From contig JAPVXR010000002.1 in assembly GCA_027214385.1 (NCBI GenBank), positions 310,001 through 374,000 of the forward strand: a stretch of 64,000 nucleotides of DNA. Direction: 5' to 3'. Positions 13,403 to 20,759 of the stretch are shown piece after piece; position 1 is the stretch's first letter, and every line of letters starts with the position of its first letter. The notes below the pieces were generated by a model. The model saw only the letters and a program-made list of their open reading frames with translations, did no database searches and was not told where the DNA came from. This stretch comes from Cryomorphaceae bacterium 1068 (lineage in GTDB: Bacteria > Bacteroidota > Bacteroidia > Flavobacteriales_D > Cryomorphaceae). The translations under genes were made by a program, and so were the position numbers.

Positions 13403-14869
13403 ATGAAGTTGCTGAAAGACATATTGTATCAGTCGCGAATCAAGCACGTTAAAGGCACAACCAACGTGGCGGTGGAAGCCGTGGTGTTTGATTCTCGGAA
13501 GGTTGTGGGTTTCTCGCTCTTCGTAGCTGTGAGAGGCGATCAGGCCGATGGCCATCTATTTATCGATAAGGCTATTGAGCTGGGAGCTGTGGCCATCGTT
13601 TGTGAAGAACTCCCCGAAGAATTACGTGAAGAGATCACTTACGTTCAGGTAGAGAATAGCCGAGAAGCATTGGGGCACTTGGCCGCCAATTTCTTTGACA
13701 ATCCTTCCGGTGAATTGAAGCTGGTTGGTATTACCGGAACCAACGGTAAGACGACCACGGCCACTATGCTTTATCGTCTTTTCAAGCTTTTGGGCAAGAA
13801 AGTGGGTTTGATATCGACAGTCGAAAATCGAATCCAAAACGAGGTGATCGGTGCGACTCATACCACGCCCGACCCTGTTCAGCTCAATGAGCTTCTGCGA
13901 AGAATGGTAGATGCCAAATGCGGTTACTGCTTTATGGAAGTGAGCTCTCACGCTTTGCATCAGCACCGTGTGGCAGGAATTGAATTTGCTGGTGGAGTCT
14001 TCACGAATATTTCGCGAGACCATTTGGATTACCACAAGACTTTCGACGAATACATTGCCGCAAAAAAGCTGCTCTTTGATATGCTTCCTTCCCCTGCCTT
14101 CGCTTTGGTCAATCTCGACGATCGTCAGGGAGAAATCATGCTGCAAAACTGCAAAGCAGGAGATCAAAAAACCTATGCTTTGAAGGCAATGGCCGATTTT
14201 AAGGCCAAGGTCATTGAAAATCTCTTTTCAGGCTTACACGTCAATTTGGATGGCATGGATCTGTACTCCAAATTGGTAGGTCGATTCAATGCGTACAATA
14301 TTCTTTGTGTGTATGGCGCAGCTCGTTTGCTCGGAGAAGACAAGATGGACGTTCTTACGGCATTGAGCAATATCAATCCGGTGGCCGGTCGATTTGAATT
14401 GATTAAAAGCACCGAAGGCGTGAGTGCCATAGTAGATTATGCCCATACGCCTGATGCCTTGGAGAATATACTTGCAACGGTCACTGAGATTCGTACCCAC
14501 AATGAGCAAGTCATCACAGTGGTTGGCTGCGGTGGAAATCGTGACAAGGGAAAGCGGCCTGAGATGGCCTCCATCGCTTGCAAATACAGTGACCGCGTTA
14601 TCCTTACTTCTGACAATCCGCGAGATGAGGATCCACAAAGCATTGTAAATGATATGAAGGTCGGAGTAGATCCGGTTGATTTCAAAAAGACCAATACCAT
14701 TCTTGATCGAGCTGAAGCCATTCGTATGGCTTGCGGACTCGCTCAAGCAAACGATATAGTTCTCATTGCCGGAAAAGGCCATGAGAAGTACCAGGAAATT
14801 AAAGGTGAGAGGTTTCCATTTGATGATCTCGCCACTGTTATGGAATCCTTTAAAGAGTTGAAGAGCTAA
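13403..14869 (+). CDS. murE: UDP-MurNAc-L-Ala-D-Glu:diamino acid ligase
   Basis: 488 residues from the ATG at 13403, one base after the ftsI stop codon. Three Mur ligase domains: UDP-binding N-terminus with FDSRKV, central ATPase with [14 protein letters not shown] near residue 112 and TTPDP, and C-terminal ligase domain with [11 protein letters not shown]. The DNPRDE motif near residue 405 is the one that selects meso-diaminopimelate rather than lysine, so the peptide should contain mDAP (family knowledge). Ends by sharing the A of its stop TAA region with the mraY start. Confidence 0.96.
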
Positions 14870-16089
14870 TGCTATACTACCTTTTCGAATATTTGGATGA
14901 AGCATATGGCCTCCCGGGAGCAGGTGTATTTCAATTCATCTCCTTCAGGGCGGCCATGGCCGTCATCACCTCTTTGATTATTTCTTTGGTGTTCGGGAAG
15001 TCGCTTATTTCCATGCTGCACCGAAAACAGGTGGGAGAAACCGTGCGCGACTTGGGATTGAAAGGTCAGATAGAGAAACAAGGGACCCCGACAATGGGCG
15101 GACTTATCATCATTGCTGCAATTCTTATTCCGACACTTCTCTTTTGCGAATTGGATAATATTTACGTGATCATCATGATCATTACCACCGTCATTCTTGG
15201 TGGTATCGGATTTTTGGACGACTACATCAAAGTATTCAAGAAGAATAAAAAAGGTCTTGCGGGTAAGTTTAAAGTAGTTGGTCAAGTAGCCGTAGGTATT
15301 TTGGTTGGAGCCGTTCTGTTTTTCAATCAGGATGTGGTAAGCAAGCGAAAAGTCTACTTTCAGAGCGAACAAACTGGAGAAATCACATCTGAATGGTTTC
15401 AGGAAAAATCGGTAAAGACGACGATTCCATTTATCAAGAACAATGAATTTGATTATGCTTGGCTTCTCGGCTTTTTCGGAAAAGAAAAGGCACAAGATTG
15501 GGCGTGGTTGATTTTTATTCCGCTTGTGATTTTTGTGGTGACTGCGGTTTCAAATGGTGCTAATATTACAGATGGGTTGGATGGTTTGGCTACGGGCACA
15601 TCTGCTATTATTGGCGTTGTACTGGCCATATTTGCCTTCGTTTCGGGGAACTTGGTTTTCTCCGACTACCTCAATATTATGTTCATTCCCGAGTCAGGTG
15701 AACTGACTGTATTCATCTCGGCATTTGTGGGAGCGTGCATTGGTTTCCTTTGGTACAACTCATTTCCGGCTCAAGTTTTTATGGGTGATACGGGAAGTTT
15801 GGCCTTGGGAGGAATCATCGCTGTTTTTGCGATTTCCATCAGAAAAGAACTGCTCATTCCGCTCTTCTGCGGAGTGTTTCTTATTGAGAATATTTCAGTG
15901 ATGCTGCAAGTCAGCTACTTCAAGTACACCAAAAAGAAGTACGGAGAAGGAAAGAGGATTTTCCTCATGGCGCCCTTGCATCATCATTACCAAAAAGTGG
16001 GATACCACGAATCTAAGATCGTGTCGCGGTTTTGGATTATTGGAATTATCCTGGCGGTATTGTCTATCGTAACGCTTAAGCTCAGGTGA
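14869..16089 (+). CDS. mraY: Phospho-MurNAc-pentapeptide-transferase
   Basis: 406 residues, about ten membrane helices. MraY transfers phospho-MurNAc-pentapeptide to undecaprenyl phosphate, giving lipid I at the inner face of the membrane. Conserved elements: GTPTMGG near residue 76, LDDYIKV near 118 (acidic pair), [13 protein letters not shown] near 227, [12 protein letters not shown] near 304 and the cytoplasmic [14 protein letters not shown] loop near 365. An insertion of roughly 60 residues after the second aspartate region ([11 protein letters not shown]... to the next helix) is typical of Bacteroidota MraY. Overlaps murE by one base and murD by four. Confidence 0.96.
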
Positions 16090-17420
16090 AAAAGCTATTG
16101 GTGCTTGGAGCAGGGGAGAGTGGTGTGGGCGCGGCTTTGCTCGGAAAGAAATTGGGATACTATGTCTTGGTTTCTGATTCGGGAAAAGTAGCGGACAAAT
16201 ACCAAAACGTTCTTAACAAGTCGGGAATTAAATGGGAAGAAGGAGGCCACAGCGCTGAGTTTCTTGCAGGGGCAGAAATCGTGGTGAAGAGCCCGGGAAT
16301 ACCGAGCGATATTGCTTTAATCAAGAATCTGAAGGAGACAAGTGCTGAAGTGATTTCTGAGATTGAGTTTGGCGCACGAAATTCCGATGCGAAAATCATC
16401 GCAATTACGGGTACCAACGGCAAGACTACTACCACTCTGCTCACCTACCACATTCTGCAAAAAGCAGGGTTGGACGTGGGAATGGCGGGTAATGTAGGAA
16501 ATAGCTTTTGTGCAGAATTGGCGGAAGGAGATCGCGAATATTTTGTATTGGAAGTGAGTAGTTTCCAGTTGGATGATGCTTACGATTTCAAGCCGTACAT
16601 CTCAGTGATCACGAACATTACCCCTGATCACCTCGATCGCTATGGCTATGAAATGAGTCGATACGTGGATGCGAAGTTCAGGATCACCCAAGCTCAAGAT
16701 GAAATCGATCACTTTATCTATTCGGCAGATGATGAAATCCTAATCGCCGAAATAGAAAAACGAATGCTCAAGCCAAATTTACACCCCATTTCCATTACCC
16801 GATCCGTTGAAAACGGAGCTGAATTATTGAATGAAAAACTGATTATAAATATCACTGATAAACCATTTGAAATGTCCATACACGACTTAGCCCTTTTGGG
16901 TAAACACAATGCAAAGAACTCCATGGCCGCAGGAGTTGCCGCTCGTATCCTCGAGATACGAAAAGAGGTGGTTCGAGAGAGCCTTGCCGATTTCCAGAAT
17001 GTGGAGCATCGACTCGAGTTCGTTGCTACCATTCACGGAATCCAATTTATCAACGACTCAAAAGCCACCAACGTCAACTCCACTTGGTATGCCCTCGAAA
17101 GCATGCGAGAGCCGACTGTTTGGATTGTAGGTGGAGTAGATAAGGGCAATGATTACTCCATGCTATTTGACTTGGTAAAGGAGAAAGTAAAAGCCATTAT
17201 TTGCTTGGGCAAAGACAACAAGAAACTACTCGAAGCATTTAGCGATAAGGTAGACCAAATCGCTGAAGCTTCTTCTGCAAGGGAAGCTGTGGGACTTGGC
17301 TATCAATTTGCCGAAAAAGGAGACACGGTGCTACTCTCTCCTTGCTGTGCGAGCTTTGACCTATTCGACAATTACGAAGATCGGGGTCAGCAGTTCAAGC
17401 ACTCGGTGAAAATGCTCTGA
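16086..17420 (+). CDS. murD: UDP-MurNAc-L-alanine:D-glutamate ligase
   Basis: 444 residues starting with GTG at 16086, overlapping the mraY stop by four bases. It adds D-glutamate to UDP-MurNAc-L-Ala. The N-terminal domain has [12 protein letters not shown]; the ATPase loop [13 protein letters not shown] lies near residue 105; the central His/Asn region is [12 protein letters not shown]; the C-terminal domain has [21 protein letters not shown] and [17 protein letters not shown]. All known substrate-binding positions are kept, so this is the active enzyme. It is followed by two genes that copy only its C-terminal domain. Confidence 0.96.
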
Positions 17421-17442: not shown

Positions 17443-17955
17443 ATGGATCCTAAAAAGACATCAAAAGACCTCTCGGAGAATCCATTGATTCGATCGCGAA
17501 TGAAGGCACTCCAAACGGAGAGACCCTTTTCGCTTGAGCCTGCCGGAATGATCAAAGGAGTGACTTTCGTCAATGATTCAGCAGCTACCACTGTCATGGC
17601 GGTTATTGAATCATTAAGTCATTTTGAGGAACCCGTAGTGTGGATTACCGAAGCAAATGATCCCGGGTTTGAATTCGAAGACTATGTCGAGATCCTGCGG
17701 GATAAAGTGAAAGCCGTTGTCGTGTACGGCGAACTTACTGCAGCATGGCACGAGGCGCTTTGGGACTACTTGGGCTTTTTCGTCAAAGCGGATACTTGGG
17801 ATGAGACCATTGATTTGAGTTTGGAAATAGCCAAGGCCAATGATTCGGTGATCTTCTCGCCAGGATGCCGTGCTTCTGAGCCCTTTTCAAATTTTCAGGA
17901 AAGAGGAGCTTATTTCAATCAGCTGCTCAAGATTAAATCCAACGCAAAAGGATAG
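17443..17955 (+). CDS. MurD C-terminal-domain-only protein, paralogue 1
   Basis: 170 residues, not a recognised named family. From about residue 27 it aligns along its length with the last 135 residues of MurD next door: FVNDSAATT corresponds to [27 protein letters not shown] to [24 protein letters not shown] to KVKAIICLG, and FSPGCRASEPFSNFQERG to [18 protein letters not shown]. The N-terminal and ATPase domains are absent, and the substrate lysines (DSKAT and GVDKG) are lost, so ligase activity is not expected. It has no signal peptide or membrane segment. It lies 22 bases after murD and three bases before a second such gene, inside the dcw operon. Probable pseudoenzyme, perhaps regulating Mur ligases or recruiting them (inference). 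Confidence 0.8.
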   Translation: MDPKKTSKDLSENPLIRSRMKALQTERPFSLEPAGMIKGVTFVNDSAATTVMAVIESLSHFEEPVVWITEANDPGFEFEDYVEILRDKVKAVVVYGELTAAWHEALWDYLGFFVKADTWDETIDLSLEIAKANDSVIFSPGCRASEPFSNFQERGAYFNQLLKIKSNAKG

Positions 17956-17958
17956 GAG

Positions 17959-18489
17959 ATGGGAGAGGGCAAGTCATATACGATTCATAAGGGAAAGAAA
18001 AGTCAGTTGAAGACCTCTATGACAGCGCTCGAAAGAATGCGTCAAAACTTAGAGGGGACGGCCTACAGAATGGATTCGGTTGGGCTGATAGATGATATTC
18101 AGTTTCTCAATGACAGTCGTGCGGTTGACCTGCTTTCTACAAGAGACAGTTTTAAGTGCTTGAAGTCGCCTGCTGTTTGGCTTACTACCACTACGCCTCA
18201 TGAGCGCGATTTTGCATTGATTGAGAGATACATCCGAAAGAAAATCAAGGCCATTGTCGTGTATGGGACTGAGGCGATCGACATGCGGTCGCAATTGGAA
18301 AAAATGGTCGATGTATTCTTAACTGTTGCAGACTTGAAAGAAGCGGTAAACGCTAGTTACGACCTCGCCGAACCAAACGATGTGGTGATATACTCACCTA
18401 GTTGTGTCGTTACAGACGGCTACCTCAATTTTGTAGATCGTGGCCAAGCTTATGAGAAATACGTGAAAGAATTAGGAAGCAGTGAATAA
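17959..18489 (+). CDS. MurD C-terminal-domain-only protein, paralogue 2
   Basis: 176 residues, related to both paralogue 1 and the MurD C-terminal domain. Matches: FLNDSRAVD (Mur[10 protein letters not shown]), PAVWLTTTTPHERDF, KIKAIVVYG, and YSPSCVVTDGYLNFVDRG (Mur[18 protein letters not shown]). The catalytic lysine is replaced by Arg and the threonine by Val; the second lysine motif is gone. A basic 20-residue N-terminus (HKGKKSQLK) precedes the domain. A good ribosome-binding site (AGGAG) sits before ATG 17959. The 3' end overlaps the ftsW start by eight bases, so translation is coupled to ftsW. Cytoplasmic; function unknown. Confidence 0.8.
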   Translation: MGEGKSYTIHKGKKSQLKTSMTALERMRQNLEGTAYRMDSVGLIDDIQFLNDSRAVDLLSTRDSFKCLKSPAVWLTTTTPHERDFALIERYIRKKIKAIVVYGTEAIDMRSQLEKMVDVFLTVADLKEAVNASYDLAEPNDVVIYSPSCVVTDGYLNFVDRGQAYEKYVKELGSSE

Positions 18490-19666
18490 AATCTGGACGA
18501 CATATCTTAAAGGAGATCGGGTTATTTGGATGGTCTGCCTCATACTTGGAATGGTATCGCTCCTAGCTGTATATTCCAGTATTTCGTCCTTAGCATACAA
18601 GTACACCCAGGGCAATACGCTCTACTATCTCTTCAAGCATGGTATTATGCTCGCTTCGGGCTTCTTTATCATGGTCCTCATTCACAAAGTAAATTACCGG
18701 TACTTCTCCCGCTTGTCGCAAATAGCGGTTTGGGTGGCTGCCGTTCTTCTTTTGCTAACGCTATTGCTCGGTGTAAACATCAACGATGCCAGCCGCTGGC
18801 TGAAGATTCCCATTATAAATCAAAACTTTCAAACCTCAGATTTTGCCAAGATCGCACTTGTAGCCTACGTGTCTCGAATGCTGGTCGTTAATCGGAACAA
18901 TCTACACAGCTTTAAAGATGGACTTCTCCCTATTCTTGTTCCGATTGGCTTAATTTGTGGTTTAATCTTGCCTGCCAATTTCTCGACGGCAGCCCTTTTA
19001 TTCTTCGTTTGTTTTACCCTTCTTTTCGTAGGAGGAATTCCCTTCAAGCACCTTTTGGCGGTGGTGGGAATTGCGGCAGCGGGTTTTGTCTTGTTACTCA
19101 GTCTTTCATCTGTGGCTCCCGATCTACTTCCGCGAGTGGAGACATGGAAAACCAGGCTAATGAGCTTCGAGTCGGGAGATAGCGAGGCCAATTATCAAGT
19201 CGAACATGCCATGATGGCCATCCACTCGGGAGGGCTTTTGCCGGCAGGGCCAGGCTCCGGCGATTCCCGGAATTATTTACCTCACCCATATTCCGATATG
19301 ATCTACGCCTTCATCATCGAAGAGTATGGTGCCATCATCGGAGGTTTTGGAATGCTTCTGCTCTACCTGATATTCCTCTACCGAAGTATCAAGGTGAGTA
19401 ATGCCTGTGAGCGTGATTTCGGTACCCTGCTAGTCATTGGACTGAGTTTCCTATTGGCCTTTCAGGCTTTCATCAATATGGGCGTGGCGGTGAGCATATT
19501 GCCCGTTACAGGTCAGCCCCTGCCTTTGGTTAGTATGGGTGGAACTTCTATTTGGTTCACATGTCTTGCCGTCGGGATGATCTTGAGCGTAAGCCGTACA
19601 AACATTGAAGGAGAGACCGTTAAAGGAAAGAAACGAGTTAAAAGAAAGAGCTATGCAGTCGCCTAG
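18482..19666 (+). CDS. ftsW: Septal peptidoglycan glycosyltransferase FtsW
   Basis: 394 residues of the SEDS family with about ten membrane helices, starting at GTG 18482. FtsW polymerises lipid II into glycan with FtsI at the division site. Visible features: DASRWLKIPIINQNFQTSDFAKIALVAY near residue 101, the large periplasmic loop with GGLLPAGPGSGDSRNYLPHPYSDMIYAFIIEEYG (residues about 250-284) and the C-terminal LPVTGQPLPLVSMGGTS. The conserved catalytic Asp of SEDS proteins falls in the HPYSDMIYAF region by analogy with the usual H-TDFIF stretch. It overlaps MurD-like paralogue 2 by eight bases and precedes murG by overlap. Confidence 0.95.
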   Translation: MNKIWTTYLKGDRVIWMVCLILGMVSLLAVYSSISSLAYKYTQGNTLYYLFKHGIMLASGFFIMVLIHKVNYRYFSRLSQIAVWVAAVLLLLTLLLGVNINDASRWLKIPIINQNFQTSDFAKIALVAYVSRMLVVNRNNLHSFKDGLLPILVPIGLICGLILPANFSTAALLFFVCFTLLFVGGIPFKHLLAVVGIAAAGFVLLLSLSSVAPDLLPRVETWKTRLMSFESGDSEANYQVEHAMMAIHSGGLLPAGPGSGDSRNYLPHPYSDMIYAFIIEEYGAIIGGFGMLLLYLIFLYRSIKVSNACERDFGTLLVIGLSFLLAFQAFINMGVAVSILPVTGQPLPLVSMGGTSIWFTCLAVGMILSVSRTNIEGETVKGKKRVKRKSYAVA

Positions 19667-20759
19667 GGTCATCATAAGCGGAGGAGGTACGGGAGGACAT
19701 GTCTTCCCCGCCATCGCTATTGCCGATGCGATCAAGGCATTGCGCCCCGATGCAAAGTTTCTCTTTGTGGGAGCAAATGGCCGTATGGAGATGGAGCGAG
19801 TGCCTAAAGCAGGATATGAAATTAGGGGTCTCGAGATCAGTGGTTTTCAGCGTAGCCTTTCGGCAAAGAATCTGAGCTTCCCGATCAAGGTGTTAAAAAG
19901 CTTGAGGGATTCTCGAAAAATTATCAAGGAGTTCAAGCCCGATGTGGCTGTAGGTGTTGGAGGCTATGCTTCCGGTCCTTTATTGCAAGTGGCAAGCCGG
20001 AAGAAGATCCCTGCTTTGATTCAGGAGCAGAATTCCTTTCCGGGAATTACCAATCGCCTTTTGGCAAAAAAGGTGAATAAAATATGTGTCTCCTATGACG
20101 GAATGGAGAAGTGGTTTCCACAGGCGAAAATGATCATGACGGGCAATCCCATTCGGAGCGCTGTTGTGGATATCGAAGGGAAGAAAGAAGCCGGATTGAA
20201 AGCATTTGGCCTCGATTCTGAAAAGCCAACCTTATTAATCGTTGGAGGGAGCCTTGGGGCCAGAACGATCAATGAAAGCATTGCCGGAGTGTTGGAGGAG
20301 ATTGCCCAATCGAACTACCAAGTTATTTGGCAAACGGGAAAACTCTATATCGACAAAGCTGAAGCTCTGGTAAAAGAAAAAGGAGCTACGAATGTACATG
20401 TAACGGCCTTTATCGAAGAGATGGATTTGGCCTATGCCGCCGCCGATCTGATTGTATCGCGTGCAGGGGCCATGGCGCTTTCAGAGCTTTGCTTGATTGG
20501 CAAGCCTTCGGTGTTGGTGCCTTCGCCAAATGTAGCAGAGGATCATCAAACAAAGAATGCATTAGCGCTAGTTAAGAATGAGGCGGCGATGATGGTGAGC
20601 GATGCAAACGCCCGAGGAGATATGTGGCCAACGGTGAGTCAGCTACTACTGAATACAGAAGCTCGAGCGTTGCTGGCCAAGAACGCTAAGGACATGGGAA
20701 AGCCGCATGCGGCAAAAAAGATTGCAGAAGAAGTATTAAAACTGATAGAAAAGAATTGA
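19653..20759 (+). CDS. murG: Lipid II synthase (GlcNAc transferase) MurG
   Basis: 368 residues from ATG 19653, overlapping ftsW by 14 bases. MurG adds GlcNAc from UDP-GlcNAc to lipid I on the inner membrane face. Motifs: N-terminal GGGTGGHVFPAIA at residue 11, GGYASGPLL near 108, NSFPGITNRLLA near 132, the C-terminal UDP-GlcNAc loop GGSLGARTINESI near 198, and SRAGAMALSELCLIGKPSVLVPSP near 273. The next gene, murC, starts within the murG stop. Confidence 0.96.
   Translation: MQSPRVIISGGGTGGHVFPAIAIADAIKALRPDAKFLFVGANGRMEMERVPKAGYEIRGLEISGFQRSLSAKNLSFPIKVLKSLRDSRKIIKEFKPDVAVGVGGYASGPLLQVASRKKIPALIQEQNSFPGITNRLLAKKVNKICVSYDGMEKWFPQAKMIMTGNPIRSAVVDIEGKKEAGLKAFGLDSEKPTLLIVGGSLGARTINESIAGVLEEIAQSNYQVIWQTGKLYIDKAEALVKEKGATNVHVTAFIEEMDLAYAAADLIVSRAGAMALSELCLIGKPSVLVPSPNVAEDHQTKNALALVKNEAAMMVSDANARGDMWPTVSQLLLNTEARALLAKNAKDMGKPHAAKKIAEEVLKLIEKN

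Follow-up and report, generated by a model that had tools for sequence, protein, structure and literature searches.

The window analyzed here, a stretch of 64,000 nucleotides from a contig of Cryomorphaceae bacterium 1068, carries a dcw cluster in which two small genes, here denoted A and B, are inserted between murD and ftsW. Their products appear to consist of little more than the C-terminal domain of MurD, and stand-alone copies of this domain are called X in the following. The features of the region are:

14869..16089, + strand: mraY, the upstream neighbor of X in family f82, where murD has left the cluster.
16086..17420, + strand: murD, canonical, with the listed ligand residues all kept and 396.7 bits with the NCBIfam murD model TIGR01087, over its cut-off; the apparent parent of the domain.
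17443..17955, + strand: gene A, 170 residues, a predicted MurD C-domain-only protein.
17959..18489, + strand: gene B, 176 residues, a predicted MurD C-domain-only protein.
17977..18006, + strand: the N-terminal motif YTIHKGKKSQ of B, seen in alignments and by a pattern count, and of low confidence in the structure model.
18482..19666, + strand: ftsW, with a GTG start at 18482, the constant downstream neighbor of the X family.
19605..20759, + strand: murG, the next gene after ftsW.

In the open reading frame list of the window murD and A are separated by 22 bp and A and B by 3 bp, and the last 8 bp of B also belong to ftsW. This confirms the two small reading frames of the original prediction, including their 3-bp spacing and the 8-bp overlap, and the tight packing supports its claim that A and B are in one operon with ftsW. 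When the whole genome was searched with gene A as query, only A, murD and B were retrieved.

The similarity to MurD is confined to its C-terminal part. In BLASTP comparisons residues 31-164 of A align with residues 310-443 of the MurD of the window (31% identity, E 1e-23, 134 residues, 0 gap positions), residues 29-172 of B align with residues 304-444 (32% identity, E 8e-26, 144 residues, 3 gap positions), and A and B share 27% identity (E 2e-24). The scores against MurD were 83.2 bits for A and 89.7 bits for B, to be compared with 34.7 and 25.0 bits for the best of 1000 shuffled sequences each, of which 994 (A) and 995 (B) gave any match. TIGR01087 matched A at model positions 308-440 of 441 only (E 5.8e-26, 91.6 bits) and B at positions 298-440 only (E 1.4e-22, 80.4 bits), so that a full-length match was absent, and neither protein reached the curated cut-off of 211.95 bits. 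In the Pfam search only Mur_ligase_C (PF02875) was seen in A (E 7.2e-5, 24.1 bits) and B (E 6.1e-5, 24.3 bits), in both below the gathering score of 28.4 bits, which is passed by X of some other families (e.g. 52.3 bits in genome G361 and 48 bits in G142). The N-terminal (UDP-binding) and middle (ATP-binding) domains were absent from both proteins in this search, and all three Pfam domains were present in the MurD of the window.

AlphaFold2 models of A and B (mean pLDDT 84.3 and 83.0, respectively) had MurD as their best PDB match in Foldseek (E 1.6e-11 and 5.7e-11), and the 33 top matches of each model were all MurD, with TM scores (query) of about 0.6-0.7. Since the alignments and NCBIfam matches cover the C-terminal part only and the top structure matches are MurD, A and B are, as judged from sequence and modeled fold, the end of MurD, i.e. 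a helix followed by the C-domain, standing alone. Structure prediction thus returned the expected fold for both proteins rather than an unrelated one, and the claim that they are devoid of the UDP-binding and ATPase domains was borne out by Pfam and by the partial TIGR01087 matches.

The reference for active-site residues was a set of 89 canonical MurD C-domains; every listed column of this set has its most frequent residue in 83 to 89 rows. In gene A, HR is replaced by F and S, the CAS serine by A, and the two Gly of GGxDKG by E and A. In gene B the Arg of HRLE is kept, GG is replaced by TT, and the CAS serine by V. NDS, SP and RG are kept in both. The predicted lysine losses were found as well, with A (gene A) and R (gene B) at the lysine of DSK, and P and H, respectively, at that of GGVDKG. 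In E. coli MurD, K348 is located near D-Glu and K319 near ADP according to a section of a review (PMC8788868); the equivalent lysines, with numbers assigned to columns by motif, are missing in A and B. The loss of domains and of residues supports the view that the two proteins are non-catalytic, and because the parts for binding ATP and the UDP-substrate are missing, a ligase role of its own is excluded for X by its predicted architecture.

Short copies of the domain occur in at least 32 of 60 genomes of the same order, including the present one (30 by protein search, and G024 and G051 by profile; the remaining loci were read in part). With a profile built from these order-level copies (A1), X was found in 71 of 296 sampled Bacteroidia genomes, distributed over 23 of 73 families. 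The 71 comprise 66 genomes with two or more matches, each of which has a short frame on re-listing (cut by a contig end in G274), and G000, G013, G024, G030 and G051; genomes with a single profile match were left out of the inspection. In G126 the X copy is shortened and very diverged. Since X went undetected by the profile search in 50 of the 73 sampled families, its function is dispensable or replaceable across the class. Outside the class, 89 genomes of the phylum were searched, and a complete short X was found in 0 of them; an 88-aa frame was seen at a contig start in G395, next to one of 431 aa, and G392 and G443 gave no match.

Twelve carrier genomes were chosen for a closer count of Mur_ligase_C matches, and 92 were listed at E 0.01 or less. 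Seventeen lie in frames shorter than 260 aa, and these are all X, 16 in the slot before ftsW and one being the unlinked X of G142; the remaining 75 lie in frames of at least 406 aa. Since the short-frame matches are all X, the stand-alone C-domains in these 12 genomes derive from MurD only. The domain and fold are those of PF02875 generally, but X stands alone, and the non-X matches are parts of the long frames. The original prediction had described the pair as duplicated MurD fragments. The derivation from MurD stands, but the fragments are not confined to this lineage, as the survey of relatives makes the pair one case of an old, Bacteroidia-wide family that is single-copy in most carriers.

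The family to which the window belongs (f1, Cryomorphaceae) has a diverged tandem pair of X copies, with B as an open frame in 8 of 8 genomes and an intact A in 7 of 8. A B-type X is present in Cryomorpha ignava. In the draft assembly of the eighth genome (G004), about 74 codons are apparently missing from gene A (L036:2175-2440), and B is intact. A frameshift was considered and set aside, since residues 9-64 and 139-168 were matched in overlapping DNA, which indicates an internal deletion; the copy thus seems to carry such a deletion, with an assembly error possible. Tandem pairs are also present in f2 and f7, where the ftsW-proximal copy is of B type, and f4 has a tandem pair with a very diverged second copy. 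One X copy was observed in the genomes read of f3, f10 and f11. The pattern [YF]TIH[KQ][SG]K[KQ]S was found in 12 of 12 B-type copies of f1, f2 and f7, and in 0 of 119 other X rows; in the model of B, residues 1-12 have pLDDT values below 50.

Three genomes of f8 contain a very diverged X of 155-167 aa (L068:2433-2906; L070, frame 2299-2766, and L061, frame 2232-2735, the latter two counted on the minus strand), two of which were detected by the family profile only. In G014, the only further f8 genome that was read, 8 bp separate murD and ftsW. In G059 (L060:2615-4215) two tandem lipoprotein-like reading frames with similar N-terminal sequence are situated between murD and X.

The position of X is nearly invariant. 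In 109 of the 112 genomes whose locus of linked X was read, the start of an ftsW frame on the same strand follows X within 300 bp, and the gap is at most 30 bp, or the frames overlap, in 87. The three exceptions are two contigs that end before ftsW (G062, G350) and a gap of 729 bp (G248). X adjoins murD in most carriers read outside f82, and in G030 and G098 X stands before ftsW and murD is found on another contig. Six extra, very diverged X copies without a recognized dcw gene nearby were encountered in f16, f52 and f56 (L104, L106, L107, L108, L109, L110), and every genome concerned has a linked X as well.

Family f82 lacks canonical murD in its cluster. Short X was found in 39 of 41 f82 genomes (none in G359 and G373; a weak match only in G370), with mraY upstream and no murD between in 30 of 30 loci read, and ftsW following in 29 of 30 (the contig of L172 ends). 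The MurD-type gene is located elsewhere than in the dcw cluster, and the MurD-type proteins from 18 loci (L193-L210) are closer to the MurD2-like half of a fusion protein in G315 than to the MurD of the window. Such fusions of a MurL-like epimerase and a MurD2-like ligase were found at 10 of 19 f82 loci, G315 counted (L112:3764-6394, minus strand; L196, L201, L202, L204, L206-L210). A MurL-like protein is present in 39 of 41 f82 genomes; in G315 its match of 257.8 bits is below the NCBIfam cut-off of 700. Glutamate racemase was found in 0 of 41 f82 genomes by a search that was positive for 10 of 14 controls. Where MurD has the DSK lysine, the MurD2-like proteins of f82 carry Ile (13 of 13), and G369, G372 and G379 have X alone with no other MurD-type match. 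MurD2 and MurL are a full ligase and an epimerase, and it is this kind of pair that f82 carries alongside X. In its relevant section the review PMC8788868 names Gammaproteobacteria, Alphaproteobacteria and actinobacteria for the MurD2/MurL pathway, and 'bacteroid' gave 0 matches in its main text.

In f82, X thus outlives the canonical ligase, being kept before ftsW while the MurD2/MurL-like pair stands elsewhere. Given that X is retained although canonical MurD is gone from the dcw cluster of f82, a partnership with that enzyme is not required.

Whether X arose once or twice was approached with trees of different row sets. In a FastTree phylogeny of 233 rows, 10 of 31 f82 X rows fell inside canonical MurD and 21 among other long X branches, and 16 X rows of f16, f22, f24, f38, f52 and f56 were placed beside or among MurD. 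A quick C20 tree of 110 rows, for which the X rows of 20 loci and most MurD2 rows had been dropped and each family, genus and type was represented by a single row, put 9 f82 X rows as one group inside MurD and 42 of 44 other X rows as one group outside it, the two separate rows being from f24. AU tests on this tree rejected neither a single X clade (p-AU 0.912) nor a clade of X without f82 (p-AU 0.908), but both constrained trees scored above the free tree, indicating a poor search. The set was then reduced to 62 rows by removing the MurD2 rows, the A-type rows of f1 and two further X rows, and by limiting each family to a single MurD row and to one X row of each type. Constrained searches on this set favored a grouping of f82 X with MurD, by about 10 log units under LG+F+G4 and by about 23 when the trees were rescored under C20, and one origin was not rejected by the AU test (p 0.407 and 0.342 for the best one-clade trees). 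The C20 tree suggests an old group, distinct from MurD, for X outside f82, and for f82 X a possible descent from canonical MurD by a second truncation; two origins are simply the better-scoring reading.

The X family is, judging from coding sequence comparisons, under purifying selection. Of 36 comparisons by the Nei-Gojobori method over the last 150 codons, 10 were saturated and 26 had usable dS; the latter gave dN/dS ratios of 0.008-0.149, which are rough at high synonymous divergence. The window pair compared with G001 belongs to the saturated ones and gives no ratio (dN 0.133 for A, 0.341 for B and 0.070 for the MurD C-domain). For A-type copies one pair gave a usable value (0.142), and for B-type copies three did (0.109-0.148). 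The original claim that the genes are kept by selection thus holds for X, and ratios near 1 with frequent frameshifts were not observed, one broken A being seen in 8 f1 genomes. Since X is under selection, it does something. That X copies are functionless, decaying murD duplicates is highly improbable: X mostly evolves faster than the MurD C-domain, and the apparent deletion in G004 and the degraded copy of G126 are of the kind expected from decay, but all 26 usable ratios are low, frames are open in 23 of 73 sampled families, and the position is constant in 109 of 112 genomes.

The exception in rate is f24 (L124, L135, L141, L145, L148, L151, L155), where X is far more conserved than the neighboring MurD C-domain. 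Four pairs gave dN/dS values of 0.008-0.023 for X versus 0.119-0.129 for the MurD C-domain (three pairs with usable dS), and identities of 93-99% versus 71-90% in the same four pairs. Of the listed active-site residues nearly all are kept in the X of f24 too, with T in place of the Gly after DK in 7 of 7 and Tyr kept in 5 of 7; the C-domain of the f24 MurD likewise retains its active site.

In the family at large the nucleotide loop is mostly lost, the DK lysine being present in 88 of 89 canonical MurD rows versus 11 of 94 rows of linked X outside f82. Among the same 94 rows, 79 retain the NDS Asp, 53 the DSK lysine, 61 the CAS serine and 91 the SP Pro. Such retention would suit a ligand sensor, i.e. 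an isolated domain that binds D-Glu or the UDP-MurNAc-peptide and reports precursor supply to the membrane-stage enzymes. We regard this as quite unlikely for the family, since lysine and serine are lost in both copies of the window and in most A-type (lysine 0 of 7, serine 1 of 7) and B-type copies (3 of 12 and 1 of 12), and are kept in only 13 and 14, respectively, of 31 f82 X rows.

Covariation of evolutionary rates was calculated for 68 loci and 133 branches, using the copy adjoining ftsW in tandem families; 17 loci had been excluded beforehand and others because of incomplete neighbors. The rank correlations (rho) of X were 0.30 with MurG, 0.23 with the MurD C-domain, 0.19 with MraY, 0.12 with FtsW (p 0.18, not above chance) and -0.03 with the N-terminal plus middle domains of MurD, in comparison to 0.05 to 0.47 for pairs of non-X proteins, and the branches are not independent. 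Rate covariation is weak, and neither MurD nor FtsW is strongly backed as a partner.

These values bear on two further explanations. X could be a regulator or trans-acting subunit of MurD that docks on its N-terminal and middle domains, or on its C-domain, and tunes ligase activity. The adjacency to murD in most carriers read outside f82, the weak covariation with the MurD C-domain and the conserved active site of f24 X are in favor of such a role. We nevertheless consider it doubtful, as X persists in the murD-less clusters of f82 and accompanies ftsW, not murD, in G030 and G098, the covariation is absent for the domains on which it might dock, and the f24 MurD retains an active site of its own. 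A regulator or ligand-sensor role is possible above all in f24 and in single-copy members. It could also be argued that the function of X is unrelated to peptidoglycan and that its place before ftsW reflects operon inertia, in line with the unlinked copies of f16, f52 and f56 and with an X-FtsW covariation within chance. This is unlikely, since ftsW still follows X in genomes with a broken cluster (G030, G098) and in f82, from whose cluster murD is gone.

The most probable explanation, to which we assign a probability of roughly 0.5, is that A and B are paralogs within a Bacteroidia family of ligase-dead MurD C-domains, and that X acts as a non-catalytic adaptor for membrane-stage peptidoglycan synthesis (MraY/MurG/FtsW). 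It is favored because X is under selection, has ftsW as its constant neighbor, survives the replacement of MurD and lacks the ligase parts. X would bind via the surface of its folded C-domain, and in B-type copies a short basic N-terminal tail would be used as well, such that cytoplasmic precursor enzymes or substrate are held close to MraY, MurG and FtsW. The binding partner would be one of these three proteins or a Mur ligase. With regard to the scaffold linked to FtsW/MurG that was originally proposed, gene order (ftsW as the constant neighbor, mraY in f82) would favor ftsW, and the weak rate covariation would favor MurG over FtsW. The earlier function may have been ligand sensing, with pure protein binding as a later step, since the D-Glu-side lysine is kept in more than half of the linked X outside f82 and the nucleotide loop is mostly lost. 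In Cryomorphaceae the job may be divided between two copies, both now without most ligand contacts. On the other hand, the order of genes in a cell-wall operon can stay fixed even if their products do not touch, and the seemingly broken gene A of G004 argues against indispensability.

A more far-reaching and tentative extension is that the C-domain of MurD itself has a second, non-ligase job at the membrane stage. This job would have been passed to a separate X early in Bacteroidia and split off again in f82, where a MurD2/MurL-type pair replaced the canonical ligase and only the C-domain of the old murD stayed before ftsW.

Compared with MurD as described by TIGR01087, A and B share the C-terminal domain fold, the anchors NDS, SP and RG and the operon, but they differ in having neither N-terminal nor middle domain, in the loss of the nucleotide loop and the D-Glu contacts, and in scores under the cut-off. 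MurT, which works in a complex with GatD, likewise has a Mur-ligase-like fold, and the weaker structure matches of B include 6h5e and 6gs2. The MurT subunit is an enzyme of Mur type and nearly of full length, whereas X is one domain. In Bordetella, MurG has been described as a scaffold for MurE and MurF in a passage of PMC6420597, and the shared idea is that of a protein that brings wall-synthesis enzymes of the cytoplasm together at the membrane. MurG is itself active as a transferase, in contrast to X, a ligase-derived domain without the ligase parts. We found no description of a stand-alone MurD C-domain in open-licence PMC papers, and in the accessible part of PMC8871954 murD is named once, in a gene list. 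As far as the open PMC literature shows, the domain itself is known, but a conserved family of stand-alone, ligase-dead MurD C-domains is apparently undescribed.

Short 'murD' annotations in Bacteroidia may accordingly represent a separate protein family. Mur ligases are among the best studied enzymes of the cell wall, and to our knowledge it is an open question how MraY, MurG and FtsW are supplied with their products in the cell. A conserved ligase-dead piece of MurD before ftsW, kept despite replacement of the ligase, offers a direct genetic handle on a non-catalytic function. An old and still-selected family of this kind suggests that the C-domain of MurD has a hitherto undescribed job other than making the cell-wall peptide.
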